From NCBI RefSeq assembly GCF_040784935.1, contig NZ_CP160680.1, forward strand, positions 5,375,802 to 5,439,801: 64,000 nt of DNA, written 5' to 3'. Position numbers and translations under genes: made by a program. Each line of letters starts with the position of its first letter. Positions within the stretch are counted from its first letter, which is position 1. Below the pieces are notes generated by a model that did not search any database, was not told the origin of the DNA, and worked only from the letters and a program-made list of their open reading frames with translations. The DNA comes from Lewinella sp. LCG006. GTDB taxonomy: Bacteria > Bacteroidota > Bacteroidia > Chitinophagales > Saprospiraceae. This document shows positions 50,017-60,791 of this stretch, piece after piece.

Positions 50017-50394
50017 CTATTCGATAATCCCCCACCGCCTTGCTTGGTCTGGATCATTCTTCGCTACATAATCTTCGAGCTGTAATATCCTTTTCGTAAG
50101 TTCTTTATTCAAGCGTTCCAGCATCTCATTTTGACCAGACTCATCTAGTGTACCGTAGGGTTTGTCGGGGCGAGAAAATTGTGGTGGATTGGTGGTAAGG
50201 TCTGTCATGACCAAGTCTTGTAAGCTTACCTCAAATATATCTGCGATTTGAATGAGTTTGGCAACGGGAGGATCACTTGTTCCTTTCTCGTATTTCGTAA
50301 CCTGACTAGCTTGTATACCAAGCTTATCTCCAAACTCAGCTTGAGTAAGGGAGTTGTTTTTTCTTAAAAACTTGATATTCTGGCTTAAATACAT
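50017..50394 (-). CDS. XRE-family transcriptional repressor
   Basis: 125 residues. The N-terminal XRE helix-turn-helix (NIKFLRKNNSLTQAEFGDKL, GIQASQVTKYEKGTSDPP) is followed by a helical tail probably for oligomerisation (about 85-125). It faces the plus-strand gene set starting at 50718, and the space between them contains repeated TGTCTT half-sites. This is the arrangement of a phage- or plasmid-type repressor switch. Confidence 0.85.
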   Translation of the reverse strand: MYLSQNIKFLRKNNSLTQAEFGDKLGIQASQVTKYEKGTSDPPVAKLIQIADIFEVSLQDLVMTDLTTNPPQFSRPDKPYGTLDESGQNEMLERLNKELTKRILQLEDYVAKNDPDQARRWGIIE

Positions 50395-50717
50395 TATTAA
50401 AAAATAATTATATTTTTAAAAGACATTTTAGTTGTCTTTAAATTCATTATTTGTCTCTAAATGACATATATTTGTATCGAAACAACGATTTAACGGCTAA
50501 ATTACACCATAAGAAGACACAAACAAAGATTTGACCGGCAAAACTTGCATTTGCCGGAGGAAACTTTCTATGTCTTCAAATAAGATACTCCGGAAATGGG
50601 TAAGCCAGACGGCTTGCGCTGGGTAGGTACGATGGGTGCATTGAAGTTGAATTAAATCGAGTTATCCCGGTACTACGTAACAGGTTTTAAACAGCTTAAA
50701 GATAAAAAATTAAATCC
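50395..50717 (+). promoter_or_regulatory. Divergent control region with TGTCTT operators and -7 box
   Basis: AAAGACA (50419-50425) and TGTCTTT (50433-50439) form an inverted repeat. TGTCTCTAAATGACA (50452-50466) is a second imperfect palindrome. Half-sites recur as AAGACAC near 50513 and TGTCTTC near 50571. The TATATTTG box at 50467-50474 gives a rightward promoter directly after the second palindrome. The layout fits repression by the adjacent XRE protein. The remaining 130 bp before 50718 holds no gene. Confidence 0.6.
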
Positions 50718-51065
50718 ATGAGTGCGCCCGTAAAATTACCAGCGGTGAGGTCGACCATTCAGCGATGGGTGGAAGACCAGATGGTGGCCAACCAGGTGTC
50801 TAAGGAAGACCTGGCGACGGCCCTGGGTATTTCCAACGAGAAAGCCACCCGTCGCCTGAGCGGTTCCAGTGACTTTAAGGCTGCGGAGATCTTCAAGATG
50901 GCCCTGTTGTTCGATAAACATTGGTACAACGACATCGTACGCCCCTTCGAGGTAGGTACGGATGAGATCTCCTTGGGAAAGGCCATTTGTTTGGCCCGCG
51001 AAGAAGGGAAAGATTTTTGCCTGATCGACCGCGCAGCAAGTATTCCTCCTCCCAAAATCTCCTAG
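50718..51065 (+). CDS. Small HTH protein
   Basis: 115 residues. An XRE-like helix-turn-helix (VANQVSKEDLATALGISNEK, ATRRLSGSSDFKAAEI) is followed by a tail starting FDKHWYNDIVRPFEVGTDEI. As the first rightward gene opposite the repressor it sits where a Cro-like regulator would be. It ends 2 bp before the next gene. Confidence 0.7.
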   Translation: MSAPVKLPAVRSTIQRWVEDQMVANQVSKEDLATALGISNEKATRRLSGSSDFKAAEIFKMALLFDKHWYNDIVRPFEVGTDEISLGKAICLAREEGKDFCLIDRAASIPPPKIS

Positions 51066-51067
51066 CA

Positions 51068-51457
51068 ATGACCAAAGACACGACTGCCATCTCCAAAGAC
51101 TTACTGTCTGTACTCATGCAGCAGAATATGCTCCTGCTTCAGCAGCAGAAGGATCTGCAAATTGAGCGGGAAGCTTACCGCATTGAGATGATGAAAATGG
51201 AGTTCTCCATGCGGGCATCCTTACCGGCGGATACGCGACCGCAGTGGGTGTCTAAAGACGAAGCGGCTTGGCTCCTGGGCCTGACGCTCTTTACTACCGG
51301 CCATCACCGACGAGCGATCGGCTGGCTGCATGATACCGGCGAATTGATCACCACGGCGGGCGGCCGCAACTCCATGCTTTTTCTTAGAAGTGAAGTCATG
51401 GAAGTCAATCAACGCATCGTAGACGGCACCGTCATTGTCCCTAAGAAATTTGGCTAA
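51068..51457 (+). CDS. Small HTH/excisionase-like protein
   Basis: 129 residues from the ATG at 51068. A coiled N-terminal half (SVLMQQNMLLLQQQKDLQIE) is followed by a possible helix-turn-helix with a two-stranded wing (VSKDEAAWLLGLTLFTTGHH, GELITTAGGRNSMLFLRSEV), the general look of MerR/excisionase-type DNA-binding domains. It is coupled to the preceding gene by a 2-bp gap. Function inferred from position only. Confidence 0.55.
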   Translation: MTKDTTAISKDLLSVLMQQNMLLLQQQKDLQIEREAYRIEMMKMEFSMRASLPADTRPQWVSKDEAAWLLGLTLFTTGHHRRAIGWLHDTGELITTAGGRNSMLFLRSEVMEVNQRIVDGTVIVPKKFG

Positions 51458-51669
51458 CCTTCTGTAGCGGAGGCTAAACAGCCGACAGCTTTTCGATCAC
51501 AATTTCAAAACACATAGAATTTAACTCAGCACGCCACGTGCGAGCTGGGCAAGATGATGCCTGACGTGACGGTTGCTGGCCGGGATTTCGGTTCCGGTCA
51601 GCACCTCGCCAGGTGCGCTAGACTATTATTCATTTTTCCGATAAATCGGAATATTACTAATGCTTATCT
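51458..51669. other. Spacer with two short palindromes before the initiator-like gene
   Basis: No gene seen. GCACCT-CGCC-AGGTGC (51601-51616) and TTCCGAT-AA-ATCGGAA (51636-51651) are short perfect hairpins or protein-binding palindromes directly upstream of the start at 51670. Confidence 0.5.
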
Positions 51670-53019
51670 ATGGGTAATACTGTGATCCTCGTTCCTAAGA
51701 CCGCACCCGTTTCCTTCTTTGAACTGCACTTTCAGAACAGTAAGAAGCTGCTCCGGCAGCACATCAATGACTACAACGCCCGGCAGCAGGGGCCAGGTGC
51801 TTTGAAATACAAACTGCGAGCCAGTCATATCCAGTTGGCGGAGTACCTCTTCCAACTTTACGGTGGTATCCTGCGGGGACAGCAGCGGACCAGTAGTTGC
51901 AATCTGGCCGAAGGCATTCTCCCAGTGCTCAAGACCAGTAACGGAGCGCTGGCGAAACAACTGGGTACCTGCAAGGCCACGATCATCAACTTGCGGAAAC
52001 GGCTGGTAGCGGCCAATATCATCGCTTACAAGAAGTGGCACGGGAGCAATGCAGCCTACGAACTGGAGCTGAACGCTAAATGCCTCTTTCTGCGCGACCC
52101 CCAAGGCCAGCTCAACGCTAATTTGAACGGCCTTTTTTTTAGTGCCCAAACAAAAACTTTTGACCATACAGTGTCAGGTACTCAGTATCCTGAGTATCCT
52201 GATCAGGATACAAAGAAAGAAAGAAATAGAGAAGGCGAAGCAACGGCCACAATTGTGGAAAACCCCAGTGAGCTGGAAGGGGAGGCCGTTCCTTCTTCGG
52301 CAAAAATTCAGGAAACTGGTTCAGGATACGATGCCAACGTAACGGATTCCGCCCCATCCCACAAGGGCGAAAATCAGGATACCCAGCCCCCCGAGTTGCG
52401 CGCGGCCCCCCCGCTGGCCAAGACTCAAGGAACTGCGCCACAAGTATTGCCCGAGCGACTACCCGCCACCATGGAGGAGGCCATCGGCTTTCTTAGTCCG
52501 GAAAACCAAATCAAGGTCCGCTACGCCGCAGGAATGTGCTGGAGCAAAGCCCTGGCCTCAATCTACAAAGACGAATGGCTGACCGACCGCCAGAAGGAGG
52601 CCGGCATGATTGCCCTGGCCGAATACATTGCTCGTTCGGTTCACCCGAAACGCTACGATGCCGCCAGGGGAGAAATACAGGAGCGGCTGGATATGGTTTT
52701 CGAATGGGTCAATGACAAGCGGGGGCGCTTTGTGCTGCTGCCGCGCTACTACTTCGACCTCCGCAATCAAAAGAACGGCGGCTTCTCCGCGACGGAGCGC
52801 TGGCTGAAGAAAAAGCAGGTGCGCAACTTCCGTCGGGCGCGCCGCACGGCCATCACCAAAGCCGTGAATACCTACCTGAAAGCCTTGCAACCCAATAGCG
52901 GAGTCGACCGGCAGGAGCTGCATCACCAATTGACGCAAACCCTGCGTAAGAAATACGGCGCAAAGATCGTGGCCATCTTTGAAGACCGGATTGATCAGGC
53001 CATTCTAAACATGAAATAA
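51670..53019 (+). CDS. Replication-initiator-like protein with in-gene iterons
   Basis: 449 residues in three parts. The N-terminal 145 residues look like a winged helix-turn-helix DNA-binding domain (RASHIQLAEYLFQLYGGI, TSNGALAKQLGTCKATIINL, RKRLVAANIIAYKKW). A low-complexity linker follows (about 165-260), then a helical C-terminal domain (about 270-445). The linker DNA holds five copies of the 9-mer GTATCCTGA or its complement. A DNA-binding initiator with its origin iterons inside the linker-coding part is the phage lambda O design. I infer the same role from architecture; no sequence match to O was established. Confidence 0.5.
   Translation: MGNTVILVPKTAPVSFFELHFQNSKKLLRQHINDYNARQQGPGALKYKLRASHIQLAEYLFQLYGGILRGQQRTSSCNLAEGILPVLKTSNGALAKQLGTCKATIINLRKRLVAANIIAYKKWHGSNAAYELELNAKCLFLRDPQGQLNANLNGLFFSAQTKTFDHTVSGTQYPEYPDQDTKKERNREGEATATIVENPSELEGEAVPSSAKIQETGSGYDANVTDSAPSHKGENQDTQPPELRAAPPLAKTQGTAPQVLPERLPATMEEAIGFLSPENQIKVRYAAGMCWSKALASIYKDEWLTDRQKEAGMIALAEYIARSVHPKRYDAARGEIQERLDMVFEWVNDKRGRFVLLPRYYFDLRNQKNGGFSATERWLKKKQVRNFRRARRTAITKAVNTYLKALQPNSGVDRQELHHQLTQTLRKKYGAKIVAIFEDRIDQAILNMK
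52174..52382. repeat. Iteron-like array of GTATCCTGA/TCAGGATAC inside the initiator gene
   Basis: GTATCCTGA at 52185-52193 and 52194-52202 (tandem), TCAGGATAC at 52203-52211, 52321-52329 and 52374-52382, plus a near copy TCAGGTAC at 52174-52181. The first three copies abut. The sites fall in the linker-coding part of the gene and are read in different frames, so they are not a protein repeat. Best explanation: binding sites for the encoded protein, i.e. a candidate replication origin. Confidence 0.65.
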
Positions 53020-53020
53020 G

Positions 53021-53335
53021 ATGCCTAAGCACCGAGACAAAGCGATCACCGAGTTCGCCTTGCGGATCAAATTCAGGAATAACCCCGACACGACCTTCAC
53101 CTGGTACCAAAGGGCAAAGGATGCCGAAGAGCAGCTCAGTATCTGGAAATCCTACCCCTACAAACAGTACAGCGGAGCGATCAAATGGGCGGCGATCCTG
53201 CCCGCCGAAGCCGCCAGAAATAAAGCCGACGCCAGCACCCACCTCTACGAGTACGACACCTGGTCAAACGGAAGTACCTGCTGGCTGAATCGGGAAGAGA
53301 TAGACCACCTGAAACGGCAAAAAGCAAGGGCGTGA
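53021..53335 (+). CDS. Small hypothetical protein
   Basis: 104 residues starting 1 bp after the initiator-like gene, so probably co-translated with it. Basic N-terminus, several Trp and Tyr residues (TFTWYQRAKDAEEQLSIWKS, YEYDTWSNGSTCWLNREEID). No family recognised. By position it may be an accessory to replication. Confidence 0.65.
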   Translation: MPKHRDKAITEFALRIKFRNNPDTTFTWYQRAKDAEEQLSIWKSYPYKQYSGAIKWAAILPAEAARNKADASTHLYEYDTWSNGSTCWLNREEIDHLKRQKARA

Positions 53336-53875
53336 GGAAGAAACGCAGGGGTATTTCAAAAAGGGAACCAATAATCCTTGGTAACCCAAAAAGAAAAACC
53401 TCTGCGCCTCTGCGCCCCTGCCTGTAAGGCCAGCTTGCTGGCAGGCAGGTCTGCGCGACATAAACTTTTGGGAACGTAACCATCCAAATACACCTATGCA
53501 CAGAAAACTACTCTACCTGACTTTCACGCAACTGGGCCGCTGGGCTTATCGCTACCTAGTCTGGTGGGAAAACAGGGTACTAAGGACCTTGGATGGACTG
53601 GCCGATTACTTCAATGACCATGATTAAATACGACGCAAATGCATAAAAAAGGGAGTGGCCTATTTAAAACAGGATAGGCCACGCCTGCCTGCCCGTGAGG
53701 CACAGCCGAGCAGGCAGGGATTAAACAGGATTACCACTGATAATATGGTCGCAAACTCCATTGAGTTTACCAAGATTTAAAATCCGTGTAAATCCGTCTG
53801 ATCCGTTAGATCCGCGTTCTATCCCACCTGGGTGGACGCTCCAATTTTGATGCACTTGCCTTAATTAAAAACACA
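53336..53875. other. Extragenic repeat stretch around a small ORF
   Basis: Outside the small frame at 53496-53627, this stretch holds recognisable extragenic repeats. There is a CCTGCC...GGCAGG palindrome near 53418-53447, another (GCCTGCCTGCCC and GCAGGCAGGG) at about 53682-53719, and an AAATCCGTGTAAATCCGTCT, then GATCCGTTAGATCCGCG, string at about 53771-53815. Such strings occur as scattered repeats in related genomes. No promoter was picked out with confidence. Confidence 0.5.
53496..53627 (+). CDS. Very small hypothetical protein
   Basis: 43 residues from the ATG at 53496: MHRKLLYLTFTQLGRWAYRY, then LVWWENRVLRTLDGLADYFN and DHD. It is aromatic-rich and probably an amphipathic or membrane-associated helix. 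Only the open frame supports it. Confidence 0.35.
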   Translation: MHRKLLYLTFTQLGRWAYRYLVWWENRVLRTLDGLADYFNDHD

Positions 53876-54256
53876 ATGGAGAATTTTGACAAAATACGCA
53901 CGAGCATCTTCGGCCATTCGCTGGCGATGACCGCCATCAGTAGCCCGCTGGCCAGGGATCTTGCCCGCAGCGAGGTGAAAATAGAAATAGCCTTTCAAGG
54001 CTTGAAAGCGACCATCGTCTCCAACGGGCCGATTACGCACGCCTCCCTTCTAAGCAAGACCGAGGCCAATTACCCCAGGACGCAGATCCGGAAAGAGTTG
54101 CTAATTCTTGAAGGTCTTTTCTTAGAAAACTACACCTCCTATTTGTCGCGACTGGCCGTCCTGGAAAAAGTGTTTTGGGCTTATCGCGAACTAGGACCCG
54201 TTTTAAATATCACCACTTCAAAACCTAAGCAGGATGTTACAAATGGAAATTCCTAA
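53876..54256 (+). CDS. Hypothetical protein
   Basis: 126 residues, mostly helical by pattern, no signal peptide or membrane segment (FGHSLAMTAISSPLARDLAR, LLILEGLFLENYTSYLSRLA). No family recognised. Its last 23 bases overlap the start of the HTH/transmembrane gene at 54234, which suggests coupled translation. Confidence 0.6.
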   Translation: MENFDKIRTSIFGHSLAMTAISSPLARDLARSEVKIEIAFQGLKATIVSNGPITHASLLSKTEANYPRTQIRKELLILEGLFLENYTSYLSRLAVLEKVFWAYRELGPVLNITTSKPKQDVTNGNS

Positions 54257-55076
54257 TCAACCCGTCATGCTCGCTGAATTCTTAGAAATCAGCCTGGAAG
54301 CATTGCGTAAGCAAATGAAAAGAATGGGCCTGGTCGAAGGCCGGTTCAATCGCTACGCTAAAATGGACAAACGGACCATCAAAGTGCTCTTAGAAGTTTA
54401 CGGACAAGAAGCGCAGGCACAACACTTGTCCACTTTTATAGAACCGGACACCGCAGCGAGCGGACAAACGGACGCTTTAAAACCTGTCCACTTGGAAAGC
54501 CACCAAACGGACAATTCTTTAAACGGACACCTTTCTAAAGAAACGGACAAGCAAGCGAGTTACCCAACGGACATCACGTCTGTTAAACAGGACAGCCCCA
54601 CGAACGGACAAGTAGATCCTTTTTCTAAAGAAACGGACAGCTGGGTAAGCGGATCGCTTTCCTTAAAAACGGACAATTACCTGGGTATTGATTACGCCGA
54701 ACTGTCCAAAGATGTCTTGTTGGCATTGATCGCGATGGTAAGTATGTATGTCCAGATGAACCACACGGCACAGGTAGTGGGTGGCGAATGGCTGCAAGCC
54801 TGGGCCTACGCCCTAAGCATCCAATTTACCGGTCTGGCGATGACGCTTTACAAGGGCAGCCTCTGGTACCTACGGGTATTTGCGTTGGCAGAGTTCTCGA
54901 TCAACCTGTTGCATTACCGCCCCTGGGCCTGCGAGTGGGTAGAAAGCGTGTCCGTTTGTGGCGGAGCAGAAGAGTGGACACGTAGCCTGCTCTTGTCCGC
55001 TTTAATCGCCTTTACAATCTATAGCTACGTAGAAATATTTGCCGCAAGGCGCAACGAAAAAACGGACATACGATGA
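54234..55076 (+). CDS. HTH plus transmembrane protein, gene filled with CGGACA words
   Basis: 280 residues (a second ATG at 54243 is also possible). The N-terminal 65 residues look like a helix-turn-helix (LAEFLEISLEALRKQMKRMG, MDKRTIKVLLEVYGQEAQ). A polar linker follows (about 70-150) in which Thr-Asp recurs. The C-terminal 120 residues form about four transmembrane helices (about 160-178, 187-205, 207-225, 247-265). The linker DNA carries ten of the CGGACA words. A DNA-binding domain tethered to the membrane through a linker whose own gene holds dense repeats suggests self-recognition and membrane attachment of the element. This is inference. Confidence 0.6.
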   Translation: MLQMEIPNQPVMLAEFLEISLEALRKQMKRMGLVEGRFNRYAKMDKRTIKVLLEVYGQEAQAQHLSTFIEPDTAASGQTDALKPVHLESHQTDNSLNGHLSKETDKQASYPTDITSVKQDSPTNGQVDPFSKETDSWVSGSLSLKTDNYLGIDYAELSKDVLLALIAMVSMYVQMNHTAQVVGGEWLQAWAYALSIQFTGLAMTLYKGSLWYLRVFALAEFSINLLHYRPWACEWVESVSVCGGAEEWTRSLLLSALIAFTIYSYVEIFAARRNEKTDIR

Positions 55077-55296
55077 ATTGGATTCTCTTCGCCCTGTCTG
55101 GTTACGATCCAGACAAAGAGGCCCGCAAACCGCGCGCGAAAACGGACAACAATAAAAAGCGGAGCGTAGAACGGACAACGGACCTGCCGGAGGACGTAAA
55201 GACAAATCCTATTACTAAGAAAACCGAACGCTACATCCGCGAAGACGAGGACACCCACACCTGGCAGCAAGTCGACCAACAGACCGGTTTCGGACA
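54401..55296. repeat. Dense CGGACA word array across two genes
   Basis: CGGACA starts at 54401, 54445, 54461, 54508, 54524, 54544, 54568, 54605, 54634, 54670, 55063, 55143, 55172 and 55291. The complement TGTCCG starts at 54949 and 54994. Most copies read AACGGACA. Chance would give about 0.4 copies in this span. The words are read as Thr-Asp, Gly-Gln, Gly-His, Pro-Asp and others, so several frames are used. They continue across the stop/start junction at 55073 into the next gene. Near copies (TGGACA, AGGACA, TGTCCA) are also frequent. Confidence 0.8.
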
Positions 55297-55540
55297 ACGC
55301 AGCAGCACTTTACTGCCGGAAGAGATCGATTTTCTAAGAACCACCAAGCATTACCTGGTCGAGAAAGGAGAAGTCCTAAAAGTCTACTGGGCCACTGGTT
55401 TGACGCCCCGTGAAACCGCGCAACAGTTTACTGAACGGGGCTACAGTTACGAAACCATCCGCCTGTATTTCCGCTTGTTCAACCGCTACGAAGCCACCCC
55501 TACCGAAGAGGAGAGGGGTTCCGCCCAGGAAGGTGGGTAA
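55073..55540 (+). CDS. Small protein with C-terminal HTH-like segment
   Basis: 155 residues, overlapping the previous gene by 4 bp (ATGA). The N-terminal half is basic and disordered (RKPRAKTDNNKKRSVERTTD) and is encoded by the tail of the CGGACA array. The C-terminal half contains a helix-turn-helix-like stretch (KVYWATGLTPRETAQQFTER, then GYSYETIRLYFRLFNRY). The GGTAATT array begins 5 bp after its stop, so it could be the protein that reads that array. No family recognised. Confidence 0.6.
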   Translation: MNWILFALSGYDPDKEARKPRAKTDNNKKRSVERTTDLPEDVKTNPITKKTERYIREDEDTHTWQQVDQQTGFGQRSSTLLPEEIDFLRTTKHYLVEKGEVLKVYWATGLTPRETAQQFTERGYSYETIRLYFRLFNRYEATPTEEERGSAQEGG

Positions 55541-55545
55541 GTCTG

Positions 55546-56667
55546 GGTAATTCGCAGGATCTAAAATGTAATTATCAGATTTTCAAAGAATTACAATAAG
55601 GTGGAATTACCCACTTACCCAGGTAATTGGTAGGTAATTGCTGGGTAATTCCGCTTTTTAAAAGCCATAAACATGCAGTATATCATCGTATTGACCATGG
55701 CCCTCTACTTCGTCGTGATGCGTATTTGGGGTCCTGTAGCGGCCTTAATCATCACCACCATTTGGGTAATTGCCTGTGTAGTACTATACCTCAGGCTCAA
55801 CTACCGCTGGAAATTGCGCCACTACGGTAAGCGCCTGGAGAACATCTACGAGTGGCAGCAATCACCCACCGACAAGCGGGTAGTCGTACGCGCTCAAGAA
55901 CACGAAGCGTGGATCAAGTTGTCCGGAAATAAAATGGGTATCCGCGTCGTCACCCTCTTTTTCCAGGATGCCCACAACCCCAGCGAGACCTGGGAAGCTT
56001 ACACCGATAGGGTAGCGGCCACCATCGCCAACGACCGCATCCTGCGCCACCAGGAGATCGAGCGCTCCCAAGGCCGTGATTATTACCTAAGGGAAATGCA
56101 CGGTCAGCAAGGCATCCGTTTTTCCGAAGAACCCGAGCCGGTATCCTTCTGGCGGCGTCTCTTTACCCGCAAAAAGCAAACGGTATGAAACAGGATAAAA
56201 TTACCATCAAAGTTGCTAAAGAAAATCCGCCCAATTACCCGCGAAAGACCTCCACTTTTGAAAGCATCCACTACCAAAAAGTAGGGGAGGGGCCGGTAAT
56301 TACCCACCTGAAGGCGGTAGGTAGTTTCTTAGAAAACCTCCCACCCACAATTACCCGCTGGGGCAAGCACACCTTAAAGCCAATTACCGGTCATTGGCTA
56401 CGAATTACCATCACGTTCTTAGTAAAGGGTGGGGGAGTACTCCTAGGTAATTGTCTGGTAATGTTGAAAAAGCTCCTCCTGCTCGTTTATTACCTGGTAA
56501 TTGGTTCTTTAAAACTCCTTCTGGTTATTCTAGGAGGGGCATTAAAACCTTCCAACAGAACTACCCAGCGCCCCAAAGCAAGAACCAAGCACTACGAACC
56601 TCCTGTGGATGATGAATGGTGGCGGCGGAAACCCAAACCTAAAGCGGGCAAGAAGAAGCGGGTAATT
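55546..56667. repeat. Dense GGTAATT/AATTACC word array across an intergenic stretch and two genes
   Basis: GGTAATT starts at 55546, 55622, 55633, 55644, 55765, 56295, 56446, 56496 and 56661. AATTACC starts at 55605, 56233, 56298, 56349, 56382 and 56403. The copies at 56295/56298 overlap to form the perfect palindrome GGTAATTACC. Fifteen copies in about 1.1 kb compare with about 0.13 expected by chance. They are read as Val-Ile, Ile-Thr, Asn-Tyr and Gly-Asn, so no single reading frame explains them. None falls between 55772 and 56232. Confidence 0.82.
55673..56188 (+). CDS. Two-helix membrane protein
   Basis: 171 residues. Two closely spaced N-terminal transmembrane helices (about 3-18 and 21-42) are followed by a charged cytoplasmic domain (about 45-171: YGKRLENIYEWQQSPTDKRV, TLFFQDAHNPSETWEAYTDR). 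No family recognised. It is preceded by five GGTAATT words in 110 bp and overlaps the next gene by 4 bp. Confidence 0.6.
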   Translation: MQYIIVLTMALYFVVMRIWGPVAALIITTIWVIACVVLYLRLNYRWKLRHYGKRLENIYEWQQSPTDKRVVVRAQEHEAWIKLSGNKMGIRVVTLFFQDAHNPSETWEAYTDRVAATIANDRILRHQEIERSQGRDYYLREMHGQQGIRFSEEPEPVSFWRRLFTRKKQTV

Positions 56668-56694
56668 CGGGTGATTTTGGAGGTGGAGGAGTGA
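56185..56694 (+). CDS. Membrane protein, gene filled with GGTAATT words
   Basis: 169 residues. A polar N-terminal part (about 1-70) is followed by one or two hydrophobic segments (about 73-115: ITITFLVKGGGVLLGNCLVM, LLLLVYYLVIGSLKLLLVIL) and a very basic C-terminus (RRKPKPKAGKKKRVIRVILE). The basic tail could contact DNA near the membrane. Ten words of the GGTAATT array lie inside it. It overlaps the preceding gene by 4 bp. No family recognised. Confidence 0.6.
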   Translation: MKQDKITIKVAKENPPNYPRKTSTFESIHYQKVGEGPVITHLKAVGSFLENLPPTITRWGKHTLKPITGHWLRITITFLVKGGGVLLGNCLVMLKKLLLLVYYLVIGSLKLLLVILGGALKPSNRTTQRPKARTKHYEPPVDDEWWRRKPKPKAGKKKRVIRVILEVEE

Positions 56695-57218: not shown

Positions 57219-58017
57219 GGGACAGTCCTCACTGTAATGGATGGCGACTTCTATTCGAGCTGTTGGAGTAGACCACATGGTTGCATGGTGTCGCAGTCCT
57301 CACTGTAATGGATGGCGACTTCTATTCGAGCTGTTGGAGTAGACCACATGGTTGCATGGTGTCGCAGTCCTCACTGTAATGGATGGCGACTTCTATGGTC
57401 TGTGGATCGTGTCATTAGTTCTCTTGGGGTCGCAGTCCTCGCTATAATGGATGGCGACTTGAAGAATTTTAAAAAGAACCATCCAAAAGTCAGAACCGTC
57501 GCAGTCCTCGCTATAATGGATGGCGACTTGAAGTTGGAGAGGCGGGCTGGATTGTTACCACCCTTCATGTCGCAGTCCTCGCTATAATGGATGGCGACTT
57601 CTATACCGAAAGGGATTGAGGATGCAATAGCTGCATACGTCGCAGTCCTCACTATAATGGATGGCGACTTGAAGAGCCAGGATACGGTACACCAAATTTT
57701 GATGGTTGTCGCAGTCCTCACTATAATGGATGGCGACTTGAAGTTAAAATGAAAAACAGATTGTTTTTCCAGTTCGTCGCAGTCCTCACTATAATGGATG
57801 GCGACTTGAAGAAAAAAATGGAAGAGACTCGAGAGAGAGAAGCGTCGCAGTCCTCACTATAATGGATGGCGACTTGAAGAGACCCCGTATTACAGGGGTG
57901 GATAGATGAAAGGTCGCAGTCCTCACTATAATGGATGGCGACTTGAAGGCTAGAAAAGATAAGCAATCTAAGCCGCTTACCGTCGCAGTCCTCACTATAA
58001 TGGATGGCGACTTGAAG
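57219..58017 (-). CRISPR. CRISPR array, 12 repeats and 11 spacers
   Basis: Repeats of 36 bp start at 57219, 57290, 57361, 57429, 57498, 57569, 57639, 57708, 57776, 57844, 57913 and 57982. On the plus strand they begin GTCGCAGTCCTCACTATAAT and end GGATGGCGACTTGAAG; GTCGC and GCGAC can pair. Spacers are 32-35 bp. The first two spacers (57255-57289, 57326-57360) are identical. Repeats at the 57.2-kb end are degenerate (TTCTAT instead of TTGAAG in four copies; CTGTAAT in three; CTCGCTATAAT in three; the first copy has a damaged start). That end is therefore the old trailer, and the array should be transcribed on the minus strand from the cas side. Confidence 0.97.
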
Positions 58018-58361
58018 GCCGGATTTTGGAAAAACTTGATAAAGATAAGTATTTCAGCGAAAAACAAATAAGATGATTTTTTAATAACATGGTTGAAAAT
58101 GATTTTTCGTTAGATTTTAACATTTGTTAAAATGTGAAAACAGGGTGTTTTTTGAATATTCAGGATTAAGCAAGATTTCCATAATGTACTGGTTGTTAGT
58201 AATTTATGGTTTTGGTGAAAACATTTTGTGTTTTTGGTAACTTCTAAAAATGCAAAAATCTGCTTAGGTCAAAAAATGATTATGTATTTTGTTTATTATG
58301 AATGGGTTAGAAGAGGTGAGATTTAATTCTACTTAACATAATGATTGTACAGAATGTTGGA
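58018..58361 (-). promoter_or_regulatory. AT-rich probable CRISPR leader
   Basis: About 340 bp of clearly AT-rich sequence lie between the cas2 stop and the best-preserved repeat, on the side opposite the degenerate repeats. This is where the leader and array promoter should be. No gene is seen. The first 40 bp next to the last repeat may be a spacer-like remnant. Confidence 0.6.
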
Positions 58362-58664
58362 TTATAGAATTAAGGTAGATTTGTCACCACTCAGCTCGTC
58401 AAGGTCAAGTTCGTTTAGCCCCAGTATTCGCATTTGTTGTACTTGTTCTGCGCTGATACGAACAATAATACAGCTATCGGTAGGGTCTCCTTTGGTCAAA
58501 ATCTCCTGGGATAACCAACTTTCCAATTGTGTCAAAGAACTTTTACTTATTGTGCCTAAATATACAGATTTATTGATACGGTCCAGGCCAAATTCAATGA
58601 TTTTTTTACCCATACGGGTGCGTAAGGGGTTTTTGGTAATATCGTAGCAAATAAGATGAGCCAT
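58362..58664 (-). CDS. cas2: CRISPR-associated endonuclease Cas2
   Basis: 100 residues of normal Cas2 length. The ferredoxin-like start MAHLICYDITKNPLRTRMGK has the Asp of the first strand in YDI, and FGLDRINKSVYLGTIS is the matching second half. Cas2 dimers bridge two Cas1 dimers in the spacer-integration complex. It starts 5 bp after the cas1 stop. Confidence 0.92.
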   Translation of the reverse strand: MAHLICYDITKNPLRTRMGKKIIEFGLDRINKSVYLGTISKSSLTQLESWLSQEILTKGDPTDSCIIVRISAEQVQQMRILGLNELDLDELSGDKSTLIL

Positions 58665-58669
58665 AATAG

Positions 58670-59650
58670 TTAGGGGTTAGTGACAGAACGAATACGCTGG
58701 GCTAGTTTTCCACTTAAAAAATGGATGTGATTTTTGTTGCTGGATTCTTGTCCTAGGAAAGTACGGTTAGAACGCAGGAAATCATTGAATAAAGGGATGA
58801 TGAAAGCTTTTCCCTCTTTATTCAGAAAAATACCATATTGGTTTTTAGAGCAGTGAGAAGGGAGCAGTTTTTGCTCAAAACAGGCTGTTATTAATAGATG
58901 ATCAATCCAGGGCCGGAAAGGCTCGATGAGGTCAAAAGCGAGAGTAGGTTTGGTGTGTGCATCGGCGTGAAGGAGTCCTAATTGTGGGTCTAACCCGGTA
59001 GCAAATAGTGCTCCTTCCACAACACTGTAAAGCATGCCGTATAAGTAATTTAGCACCGCGTTAAAAACGTCTTCTGCGGGCCTCCTGCTCCGTTTGTTGA
59101 AACGAAATTTACGAGGCATACTCTTGCCAAGTGCTGTCCAATACACATTGGCCAACGCTCCTTCTACGCCCATGATGTTCTTTTGGCAGTGGGTTAGGAT
59201 TTGTCCCCGGAAATCTTCAAAACGGTTGTTTGATTTAAGGGTGTTGATGGTTTGGGATAATTGCCAGCCTACACTGGTATGGTGCTGCTTGATCCACTGG
59301 AGGTTCTCGATTTGTCCCAGTGTTTTTAATTCAAACAGGTCCAATATCCAGGCGGTAGCTTCTGGCAACTGGGCAAAATTGACTTGCCCACGCCTCAGAC
59401 TGGCAATGGTACTGAAGTAAGGATTCCACAGTTTCGCCTGAACTTTACCGATGCGATTAAAAAACAAAATCGGAATCTCGTGCTTTACCGCCAGCAAAAC
59501 CGCACTGGCCTCCATCCGAACATTGGCCGTAATGGCAATACTCGTCAGCTTGCCAGGACTGATGACCCGCTCGCTTTTTTCGTTGAAAACGTGGAAGATG
59601 CCATTCTTTTTGGCCAGCGTTAGTCCTTTGGTGTCGAGGATGAGTTGCAT
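58670..59650 (-). CDS. cas1: CRISPR-associated integrase Cas1
   Basis: 326 residues. The N-terminal beta domain includes MQLILDTKGLTLAKKNGIFH. The metal-binding residues of the helical domain are in place: Glu163 in GVEGALANVYW, His228 in LGLLHADAH and Asp240 in LAFDLIEPFRPW. Cas1 inserts new spacers at the leader-proximal repeat. It is the middle gene of the RT-cas1-cas2 operon, 17 bp after the RT stop. The RT is a separate protein, not fused to Cas1. Confidence 0.94.
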   Translation of the reverse strand: MQLILDTKGLTLAKKNGIFHVFNEKSERVISPGKLTSIAITANVRMEASAVLLAVKHEIPILFFNRIGKVQAKLWNPYFSTIASLRRGQVNFAQLPEATAWILDLFELKTLGQIENLQWIKQHHTSVGWQLSQTINTLKSNNRFEDFRGQILTHCQKNIMGVEGALANVYWTALGKSMPRKFRFNKRSRRPAEDVFNAVLNYLYGMLYSVVEGALFATGLDPQLGLLHADAHTKPTLAFDLIEPFRPWIDHLLITACFEQKLLPSHCSKNQYGIFLNKEGKAFIIPLFNDFLRSNRTFLGQESSNKNHIHFLSGKLAQRIRSVTNP

Positions 59651-59667
59651 GTAATTACTTTACTTGG

Positions 59668-60711
59668 TTAAAAATTGTAGGGAAAACCCCGCCAGCTCAT
59701 GGCCCCGAATTCTTCCTGGGGCGGGTTGGTAGCGGTATAGAAAGCGTCGCGTATTTCCATATACTGCTCGTGCCTACGGCCAAGTACAAATCCGGCAAAG
59801 CTGATCCTTCCGCGAACTTGTTGCTGCATTTTGGTGAGCCAGCGGGTACTGAGCTGTCCTTGTTCATTTTGTGCTCGTACTGCCGCGGCAAGTTGGTTGA
59901 CTTCGCTGCGGAGCTGGGGCAGGAAATCAGGAGCCAGACCCACCTTGTCGGTCAGGAGGAGACCGGTGACAATTTTGGCGTCTTCGGGTCCCGAGCGGGT
60001 AACCTTGCGGAGGTTCACCCGGAAACCTGCTTGAGTGATCAGGTCTTTCACGGATTGAATCATCTCTTCGTTGATCTTTTGGTGGCTGGAAAAACTCATG
60101 TCATCTGCGTAGCGGGTATATACCCACAGCATGTTCGTAGCGTATGCCTGGAGGGTGTCGTCTAGTGAGCGGCAGGCAAAATTAGACAGGGTAGGGGAGG
60201 TAGGCGTGCCCATCGGCAGGCGTTCCTGATAAGTACATAGATCGGCGATTAAATCCGCCAGTTCTCCTTTGAATCGGAAGGGTTTTTCCAGGAAAATCTG
60301 TAAGACCATTCCTCGGCTCACACTATGAAAAAAGTCTTTAAGGTCGATATTGAGCAAATAGGGGCGACCCAAGTGTTTTTGCGCGTTGGTTAGTACGTTG
60401 CGGCGATCATCATCGTTGCGGACACCAGATACAAAACCGTAGGCGGCGTTTGATTTTTCGAAGAAGTAGGTACTTTGCAAATAGCGGTTCAGCTGCGAAA
60501 GAACTTTCTTCAAAGGCGCAGAAGGGTTTTCTATTTGCCGTTCTCCACCTCCCTTTTTGGGGATCGTGAAGGTTTTGTAACTTGGCTGTTGGGCCATCAA
60601 TTTCAATTGCTGAGGATGGGTTTTTAGAAGTTTTCCCAACTCAGTTATGGAGCGGATGCTGCAAATAACCGCCTTGTTGTTTTGATGTTGTTGCCGGGTT
60701 TGCTTGTTCAT
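59668..60711 (-). CDS. CRISPR-linked retron-like reverse transcriptase
   Basis: 347 residues from the ATG at 60711 (a TTG start 33 bp upstream is possible). RT motifs in order: YKTFTIPKKGGGERQIENPS, the first catalytic Asp at 123 in NIDLKDFFHSVS, LPMGTPTSPTLSNF, YADD at 201-204 and IVTGLLLTDKVGLAPDFLPQL, which is a retron/retron-like ending. As the first gene of an operon with cas1 and cas2 it could allow acquisition of spacers from RNA, as shown for RT-Cas1 fusions in type III systems. No maturase domain is present. Confidence 0.9.
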   Translation of the reverse strand: MNKQTRQQHQNNKAVICSIRSITELGKLLKTHPQQLKLMAQQPSYKTFTIPKKGGGERQIENPSAPLKKVLSQLNRYLQSTYFFEKSNAAYGFVSGVRNDDDRRNVLTNAQKHLGRPYLLNIDLKDFFHSVSRGMVLQIFLEKPFRFKGELADLIADLCTYQERLPMGTPTSPTLSNFACRSLDDTLQAYATNMLWVYTRYADDMSFSSHQKINEEMIQSVKDLITQAGFRVNLRKVTRSGPEDAKIVTGLLLTDKVGLAPDFLPQLRSEVNQLAAAVRAQNEQGQLSTRWLTKMQQQVRGRISFAGFVLGRRHEQYMEIRDAFYTATNPPQEEFGAMSWRGFPYNF

Positions 60712-60791
60712 CGTTATTGTTTTAGTATGGATCGTGGTCTTCAATAAAATGATGAAGTAGCTTGCCTGTTTTTTTCATGTTGAACACAAAT

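Follow-up and report, generated by a model that had tools for sequence, protein, structure and literature searches.

A selected GGTAATT/AATTACC array and its putative small HTH-type reader in a mobile-element module of Lewinella

The window, i.e., the whole 64-kb stretch of DNA analyzed here, contains at positions 50017 to 56694 a module that it has in common with locus L018 and that runs from an XRE-type repressor gene on the minus strand through the gene g4. Besides the window copy, the same genome has a second homologous module (L004), and four others come from different genomes (L018, L019, L030, and L086), giving six loci in all; further loci contain relatives of g1 alone. A Rep-like protein of 449 aa (51670 to 53019, plus strand) has a weak match to the replication initiation family phrog_270. 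Also on the plus strand are g1 (54234 to 55076; 280 aa, or 277 aa with a start at 54243), g2 (55073 to 55540; 155 aa), g3 (55673 to 56188; 171 aa), and g4 (56185 to 56694; 169 aa). Hydropathy assigns g1, g3, and g4 to the membrane. In this sequence-based prediction, g1 consists of an N-terminal HTH-like segment, which has no match in Pfam, a linker, and a conserved hydrophobic C-terminal (membrane) domain; g3, conserved in all six loci, combines a hydrophobic N terminus with a soluble domain; and g4 has a hydrophobic center. The Rep-like protein and g0 to g4 match no defense model in PADLOC, and Pfam searches with the tested proteins of the window module recognize no partition ATPase.

Array 2, found by exact search and conserved in L018, consists of the word GGTAATT/AATTACC on both strands of the segment from 55546 to 56667. 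It comprises 16 exact sites (9 on the plus strand and 7 on the minus strand, in more than one reading frame) in 15 places, as the palindrome GGTAATTACC at 56295 to 56304 holds two of them, at 56295 and 56298, and is scored twice. The fifteen copies in about 1.1 kb given in the preliminary description are thus correct as places, whereas the number of exact sites is 16. The 132-bp gap between g2 and g3 holds five sites, g3 a single one, and g4 the other ten, in agreement with the earlier placement of the word in an intergenic stretch and in two membrane-protein genes, in different frames. By exact search, the entire window has 22 copies of GGTAATT, 16 of them in this segment. The genome total of 1530 copies per 7.51 Mb corresponds to 0.23 expected per 1.12 kb, so that the word is not evenly common genome-wide and its excess in the array is ~70-fold; the local Markov expectation is 0.27. 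Among clustered 7-mers of the window, array 2 is matched only by the CGGACA array and the CRISPR repeats. Two lone copies of GGTAATT are found upstream, at 54068 and at 54675. The latter lies inside the CGGACA array, so the two arrays adjoin, as described previously, but are not strictly separated.

Site comparison delineates an intergenic core of array 2 at 55536 to 55650, with exact copies at 55546 (+), 55605 (-), 55622 (+), 55633 (+), and 55644 (+) and one-mismatch slots at 55536 (+), 55567 (+), 55589 (-), and 55613 (-), the first of which, GGTAAGT, overlaps the end of g2. In the window, L004, and L019, the core contains runs of copies at 10- to 11-bp steps. Across the whole of array 2, helical phase is marginal, with P values from 0.01 to 0.25 depending on the set of sites.

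The adjoining array 1 contains 16 CGGACA sites (54401 to 55296; 14 on the plus strand and 2 on the minus strand) that are spread over the linker and membrane-domain portions of g1 and the first half of g2. Genome-wide, there are 20 CGGACA triplets spanning no more than 30 bp, all inside the window element or L004. The words in g1 exceed synonymous-codon shuffles, and comparison with L018 shows differences at 0 of 96 word bases versus 66 of 1202 bases outside (p = 0.006); a phase test over the array finds no helical phase. CGGACA is the first word, unchanged, in all six module loci, and the N-terminal domains of g1 from L004 and L019 are 100% identical. In L085, where the N-terminal domain of g1 is unrelated, the word is different, CCTTAGTAA, with 12 copies of CTTAGTA (log10 P = -22.7). 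L077, also with an unrelated N-terminal domain in g1, has a CCTTAGTAA-type word that is weaker than in L085, and no clear array is found in L076, whose g1 has the same kind of N-terminal domain as that of L085. Since word 1 and the g1 HTH are both unchanged while word 2 tracks the HTH of g2 (see below), these comparisons suggest that CGGACA is paired with g1, as its putative reader, and GGTAATT with g2. TTAGAAA-like repeats in g0 and g1 were considered as a third array and rejected, having low counts and partly overlapping array 1. Another word, CAGGATAC, occurs six times at 51866 to 52382, inside the Rep-like gene; five of these six copies are kept in L018 and none is seen in L004. Located in the linker of the rep gene, CAGGATAC is a possible third word and origin candidate.

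Array 2 is selected DNA, as its words are nearly unchanged in L018 and those in g4 exceed synonymous shuffles. In comparison with the orthologous locus L018 of the sister species, 1 of 108 word bases differs, versus 125 of 1049 (11.9%) outside the words (p = 3e-5), an ~13-fold lower divergence, and L018 keeps 15 of the 16 words intact versus 50% of control 7-mers. In 2000 synonymous-codon shuffles of g4, the mean number of words is 2.4 and the maximum is 7, versus the 10 observed. The more distant L004 element has kept 8 of the 16 window words overall and only 3 of the 10 in g4, which indicates that words in g4 come and go and that those seen here probably arose in the lineage of the window.

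The motif discovery proposed in the preliminary description was run blind on the gap after g2 and yields a repeated word in each of the six loci: GGTAATT ranks first in the window, L018, and L004, CGTAAG(TA) in L019, CTTATAA in L030, and ATGCAA in L086. Repeated words are thus present in every locus that encodes g1 and g2 (6/6). Word 2 takes the forms GGTAATT, CGTAAGTA (L019), CTTATAA (L030), and ATGCAA (L086), i.e., four independent words in six loci, the weakest being ATGCAA (P = 0.004 at k = 6 and 0.13 at k = 7). Cross-counts of GGTAATT, CGTAAGTA, and CTTATAA find exact copies of each only in its own loci. Other candidates did not hold up: GGTAAAC and GCGGAAC in L029 do not rise above the noise seen in other loci, and CCTTAAAG, repeated upstream of g1 at L030:6602-7576, was rejected as the second word of L030 because the gap after g2 holds CTTATAA. 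The GTTAAAC repeat of L087 is weak, and L028, L076, L088, and L089 have no convincing array. At L086:3895-5195, downstream of g2 and at the contig end, a perfect or near-palindromic word, TTCGGCGAA, is found in six copies.

While the words change, their slots largely stay. Relative to the next gene, exact sites are located at -127, -68 (minus strand), -51, -40, and -29 in the window; at -135, -125, -67 (minus strand), -50, -39, and -29 in L004; and at -142, -132, -73 (minus strand), -54, -43, -32, and -22 in L019. The core slots of the window hold GGTAATT in L004 and, in the outer arms, CGTAAGTA in L019, and the positions of word 2 around an IHF-like site are shared by the window, L018, L004, and L019. 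L030 has the -51 and -29 positions in common and is otherwise rearranged, and L086 shares only the 10-bp steps. The core is directly upstream of g3 in the window, L018, L004, and L019 and of a g4-type gene in L030 and L086. In L019, word 2 is nearly confined to the core, so that its spread into g3 and g4 is an inconstant feature. The IHF-like site TTTCAAAGAATTA (55581 to 55593, plus strand) is located between the two arms of the core and has one mismatch to WATCAANNNNTTR, the E. coli consensus. This motif, sought after the sequences had been viewed, is exact in L004, L019, and L030 (chance of 0.024, 0.003, and 0.009, respectively, in shuffled gaps) and one mismatch off in the window, L018, and L086, where such a match is not unusual by itself. 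In all these loci it is on the same strand, between the arms.

The proposed reader of array 2, g2, has a predicted disordered part (residues 1 to 75) and a helical HTH-like domain (residues 82 to 138; 55316 to 55486) in a low-depth AF2 model with a mean pLDDT of 59, or about 80 in the HTH. Comparison of this model with PDB structures gives Z scores of at most 4.4, too weak to name a family, and g2 has no Pfam match and no strong PHROGs match. Between L004 and L019, the g1 HTH is identical and word 1 is the same, whereas word 2 differs. The HTH of g2 shows 60% identity where word 2 is the same versus 41% where it differs (L004/L019). In the window and L004, which have both words in common, identity is 37% for the Rep-like proteins and 45% for g4, and two small regulators show 27% and 18%. 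Because their identities do not follow word 2, g1, Rep, the small regulators, and g4 are disfavored as its readers. The identity of g3 follows the word as well as that of g2 (73% versus 39%), but g3 has no recognized DNA-binding part. By elimination, g2, with its predicted HTH, appears to be the only plausible DNA-binding protein among the genes compared that tracks word 2, and it very probably binds this word. The earlier suggestion of one reader for one word fits these comparisons well: four lineages have four words, which change along with the HTH of g2, the putative binding partner.

Downstream of the module, L004, L019, and L030 encode a P-loop NTPase, a beta-rich protein that is conserved, enzymes of the amidase and lysozyme types, and many small proteins, suggesting that these modules sit in an integrated virus-like element of at least ~25 kb. 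The beta-rich protein is predicted to form a jelly roll with a weak resemblance to the PRD1 and PR772 capsids (Z = 5.9); this resemblance is only suggestive, and the protein is a candidate capsid. A structural module of this kind (NTPase, jelly-roll candidate capsid, and lytic enzymes) is found at L004:13420-15198 and in L031, L032, and L033. Of 398 genomes of the order, 13 encode the NTPase, which has no match in phage and plasmid records; searches of viral contigs found no relative of g3, the NTPase, the candidate capsid, or the membrane domain of g1. The flanks of the L004 element show no convincing att-like repeat, only a 14-mer of chance size. The window and L018 copies have no virus-like part and end beside CRISPR-related genes; the window copy looks chromosomal, with its virus-like part lost. 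Immediately after the element remnant, the window contains a CRISPR array and the genes for Cas2, Cas1, and a reverse transcriptase (57224 to 60744).

The explanation favored here, with a probability of about 0.5, is that array 2 is a g2-specific binding array that serves maintenance of the element and autoregulation. The GGTAATT array would be a multicopy binding site for g2, recognized through its C-terminal HTH. Binding would probably nucleate on the intergenic core, on both sides of the IHF-like bend site, where copies 10 to 11 bp apart would be on one face of the helix, and then spread into g3 and g4 over the copies located there. The array would most likely serve as a centromere-like maintenance site of the mobile element, in the manner of StbA/stbDR or ParR/parC. 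The complex of g2 with the core, just upstream of g3, might also repress its own operon, and g1, a predicted membrane protein and the putative reader of the neighboring CGGACA array, might tie the same DNA to the membrane. The apparently chromosomal state of the window copy, which has lost the virus-like part, is a point against maintenance, as is the failure of Pfam to recognize a partition ATPase among the tested proteins of the module; the small number of independent words (four), the equally good tracking of word 2 by g3, and the near confinement of word 2 to the core in L019 also weigh against this reading.

By analogy, the closest functional picture is StbA/stbDR of plasmid R388, where two sets of five 9-bp repeats with an 11-bp period surround the operon promoter and are required for stability (PMC3098194). 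Similar features are a small putative DNA-binding protein, short direct repeats with an ~11-bp period (10- to 11-bp steps in the cores of the window, L004, and L019, beside the presumed promoter), and copies elsewhere in the element. In contrast to stbDR, the 5 to 7 exact repeats are placed on both sides of an IHF-like site, additional copies are located inside coding genes, and a second putative reader/word pair (g1/CGGACA) adjoins the array; the Pfam and PHROGs scans made found no sequence relation to StbA. Clustered short boxes are also typical of parC/ParR and of P1/P7 parS; P1 parS has an IHF site between two arms, and in P1/P7-type plasmids the box sequence differs between relatives along with ParB. 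The core resembles P1 parS in its central IHF-like site, as judged by the E. coli consensus only, with boxes on both arms, but the words span 1.1 kb and reach into genes, and the proteins of the window module have no match to the ParA, ParM, and ParB families in Pfam (ParA and ParB at E up to 1).

In Streptococcus pneumoniae, RocS binds both membrane and DNA; this protein and a plasmid Par of the same type have been proposed to act as a motorless tether of DNA to the membrane (PMC11500499). As judged from its sequence, g1 would have the same order of an N-terminal DNA-binding part, a linker, and a C-terminal membrane part, but with an integral hydrophobic domain instead of the amphipathic helix of RocS and with its proposed sites in its own gene. 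Iterons within the initiator gene are known from phage lambda O-type origins. Sites in the linker of the putative reader's own gene are likewise seen for array 1 in g1 and CAGGATAC in rep, but g1 is a membrane protein and not a Rep-like one, and array 2 follows, rather than interrupts, the gene of its putative reader.

A role as an operator only, with g2 on the core repressing the g3-g4 promoter, the copies in g3 and g4 acting as auxiliary operators or roadblocks, and no part in maintenance, is rather unlikely. It is consistent with the location of the core directly before g3 or, in L030 and L086, the g4-type gene and with the common autoregulation of small HTH proteins, but ten g4 words under synonymous-level selection exceed a usual operator, and the neighboring array 1 is still longer and situated in coding DNA. 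The words could also be iterons of a replication origin, the place where a replication complex assembles. Repeats in helical register, an IHF-like site, and AT-rich stretches do resemble origins, and the module encodes a Rep-like protein; however, only 37% identity of Rep between the window and L004 with an unchanged word indicates that Rep is not the reader of word 2. As the identity of Rep does not follow the word, in contrast to iteron origins, and the rep gene has in its own repeated CAGGATAC a better origin candidate, this role of array 2 appears improbable.

Even less probable is a signal by which the parent virus-like element would be transferred or packaged, with g1 and g2 bringing the DNA to the membrane. 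The related elements encode an NTPase, a candidate capsid, and lytic enzymes, and CGGACA is mostly in a single orientation; yet the arrays of the window and L018 are intact and selected although the structural part is absent, and among the matches listed, other elements with a related NTPase have no such array. There is hardly any likelihood that the words simply reflect recurrent peptides or the codon usage of the membrane and linker proteins and have no role at the DNA level. Many of them do share one frame and encode recurrent I-T or V-I (g4) and T-D or G-Q (g1), but other words lie in intergenic DNA or in different frames, both strands are used, the counts in g1 and g4 are above those of synonymous shuffles, and the divergence of array 2 words is ~13-fold below that of their surroundings.

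If g2 binds the word, the loci would offer four natural combinations of a small HTH with its own DNA word in a similar architecture, a well-defined system in which to study the joint change of specificity in a protein and its many sites. Combined with the favored maintenance role, this may be a membrane-linked maintenance system with no recognized motor, from an undescribed family, with sites selected inside coding sequence. A more tentative generalization, somewhat doubtful at present, is that this family of mobile elements addresses its own DNA by at least two independent reader/word pairs, with the g2 HTH, the core, and g3 swapped as a cassette at fixed slots. In that case, arrays would be written into both coding and intergenic DNA, and relatives would keep the geometry and change the code, which would amount to a naturally occurring set of corresponding HTH and word variants and might lessen cross-talk between co-resident elements. 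Strict avoidance of cross-talk is disfavored, as the window and L004, two elements in one genome, have both words in common.

Several other features were noted in the related loci. To the left of the L004 element (L035:81-12617), large genes resemble DNA-modification defense genes and, by eye, look PAPS-reductase-like, SMC-like, and DUF262-like. At L030:12568-14235, the gene for a 322-aa protein, whose IS110-type match is weak, precedes 19 boxes at a spacing of exactly 36 bp. Every unit contains a pair of conserved boxes and a pair of variable stretches, the latter of ~9 nt each. A 36-nt spacing is typical of TIGR arrays. The unit layout likewise resembles the TIGR arrays described for TIGR-Tas systems (PMC12045711), and this is probably a TIGR-Tas locus within a related element. 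At L019:11649-12000, a Gly/Leu/Val repeat in a 727-aa NACHT-like membrane protein gives rise to dense GACCAGC words, which, unlike arrays 1 and 2, represent a coding repeat.
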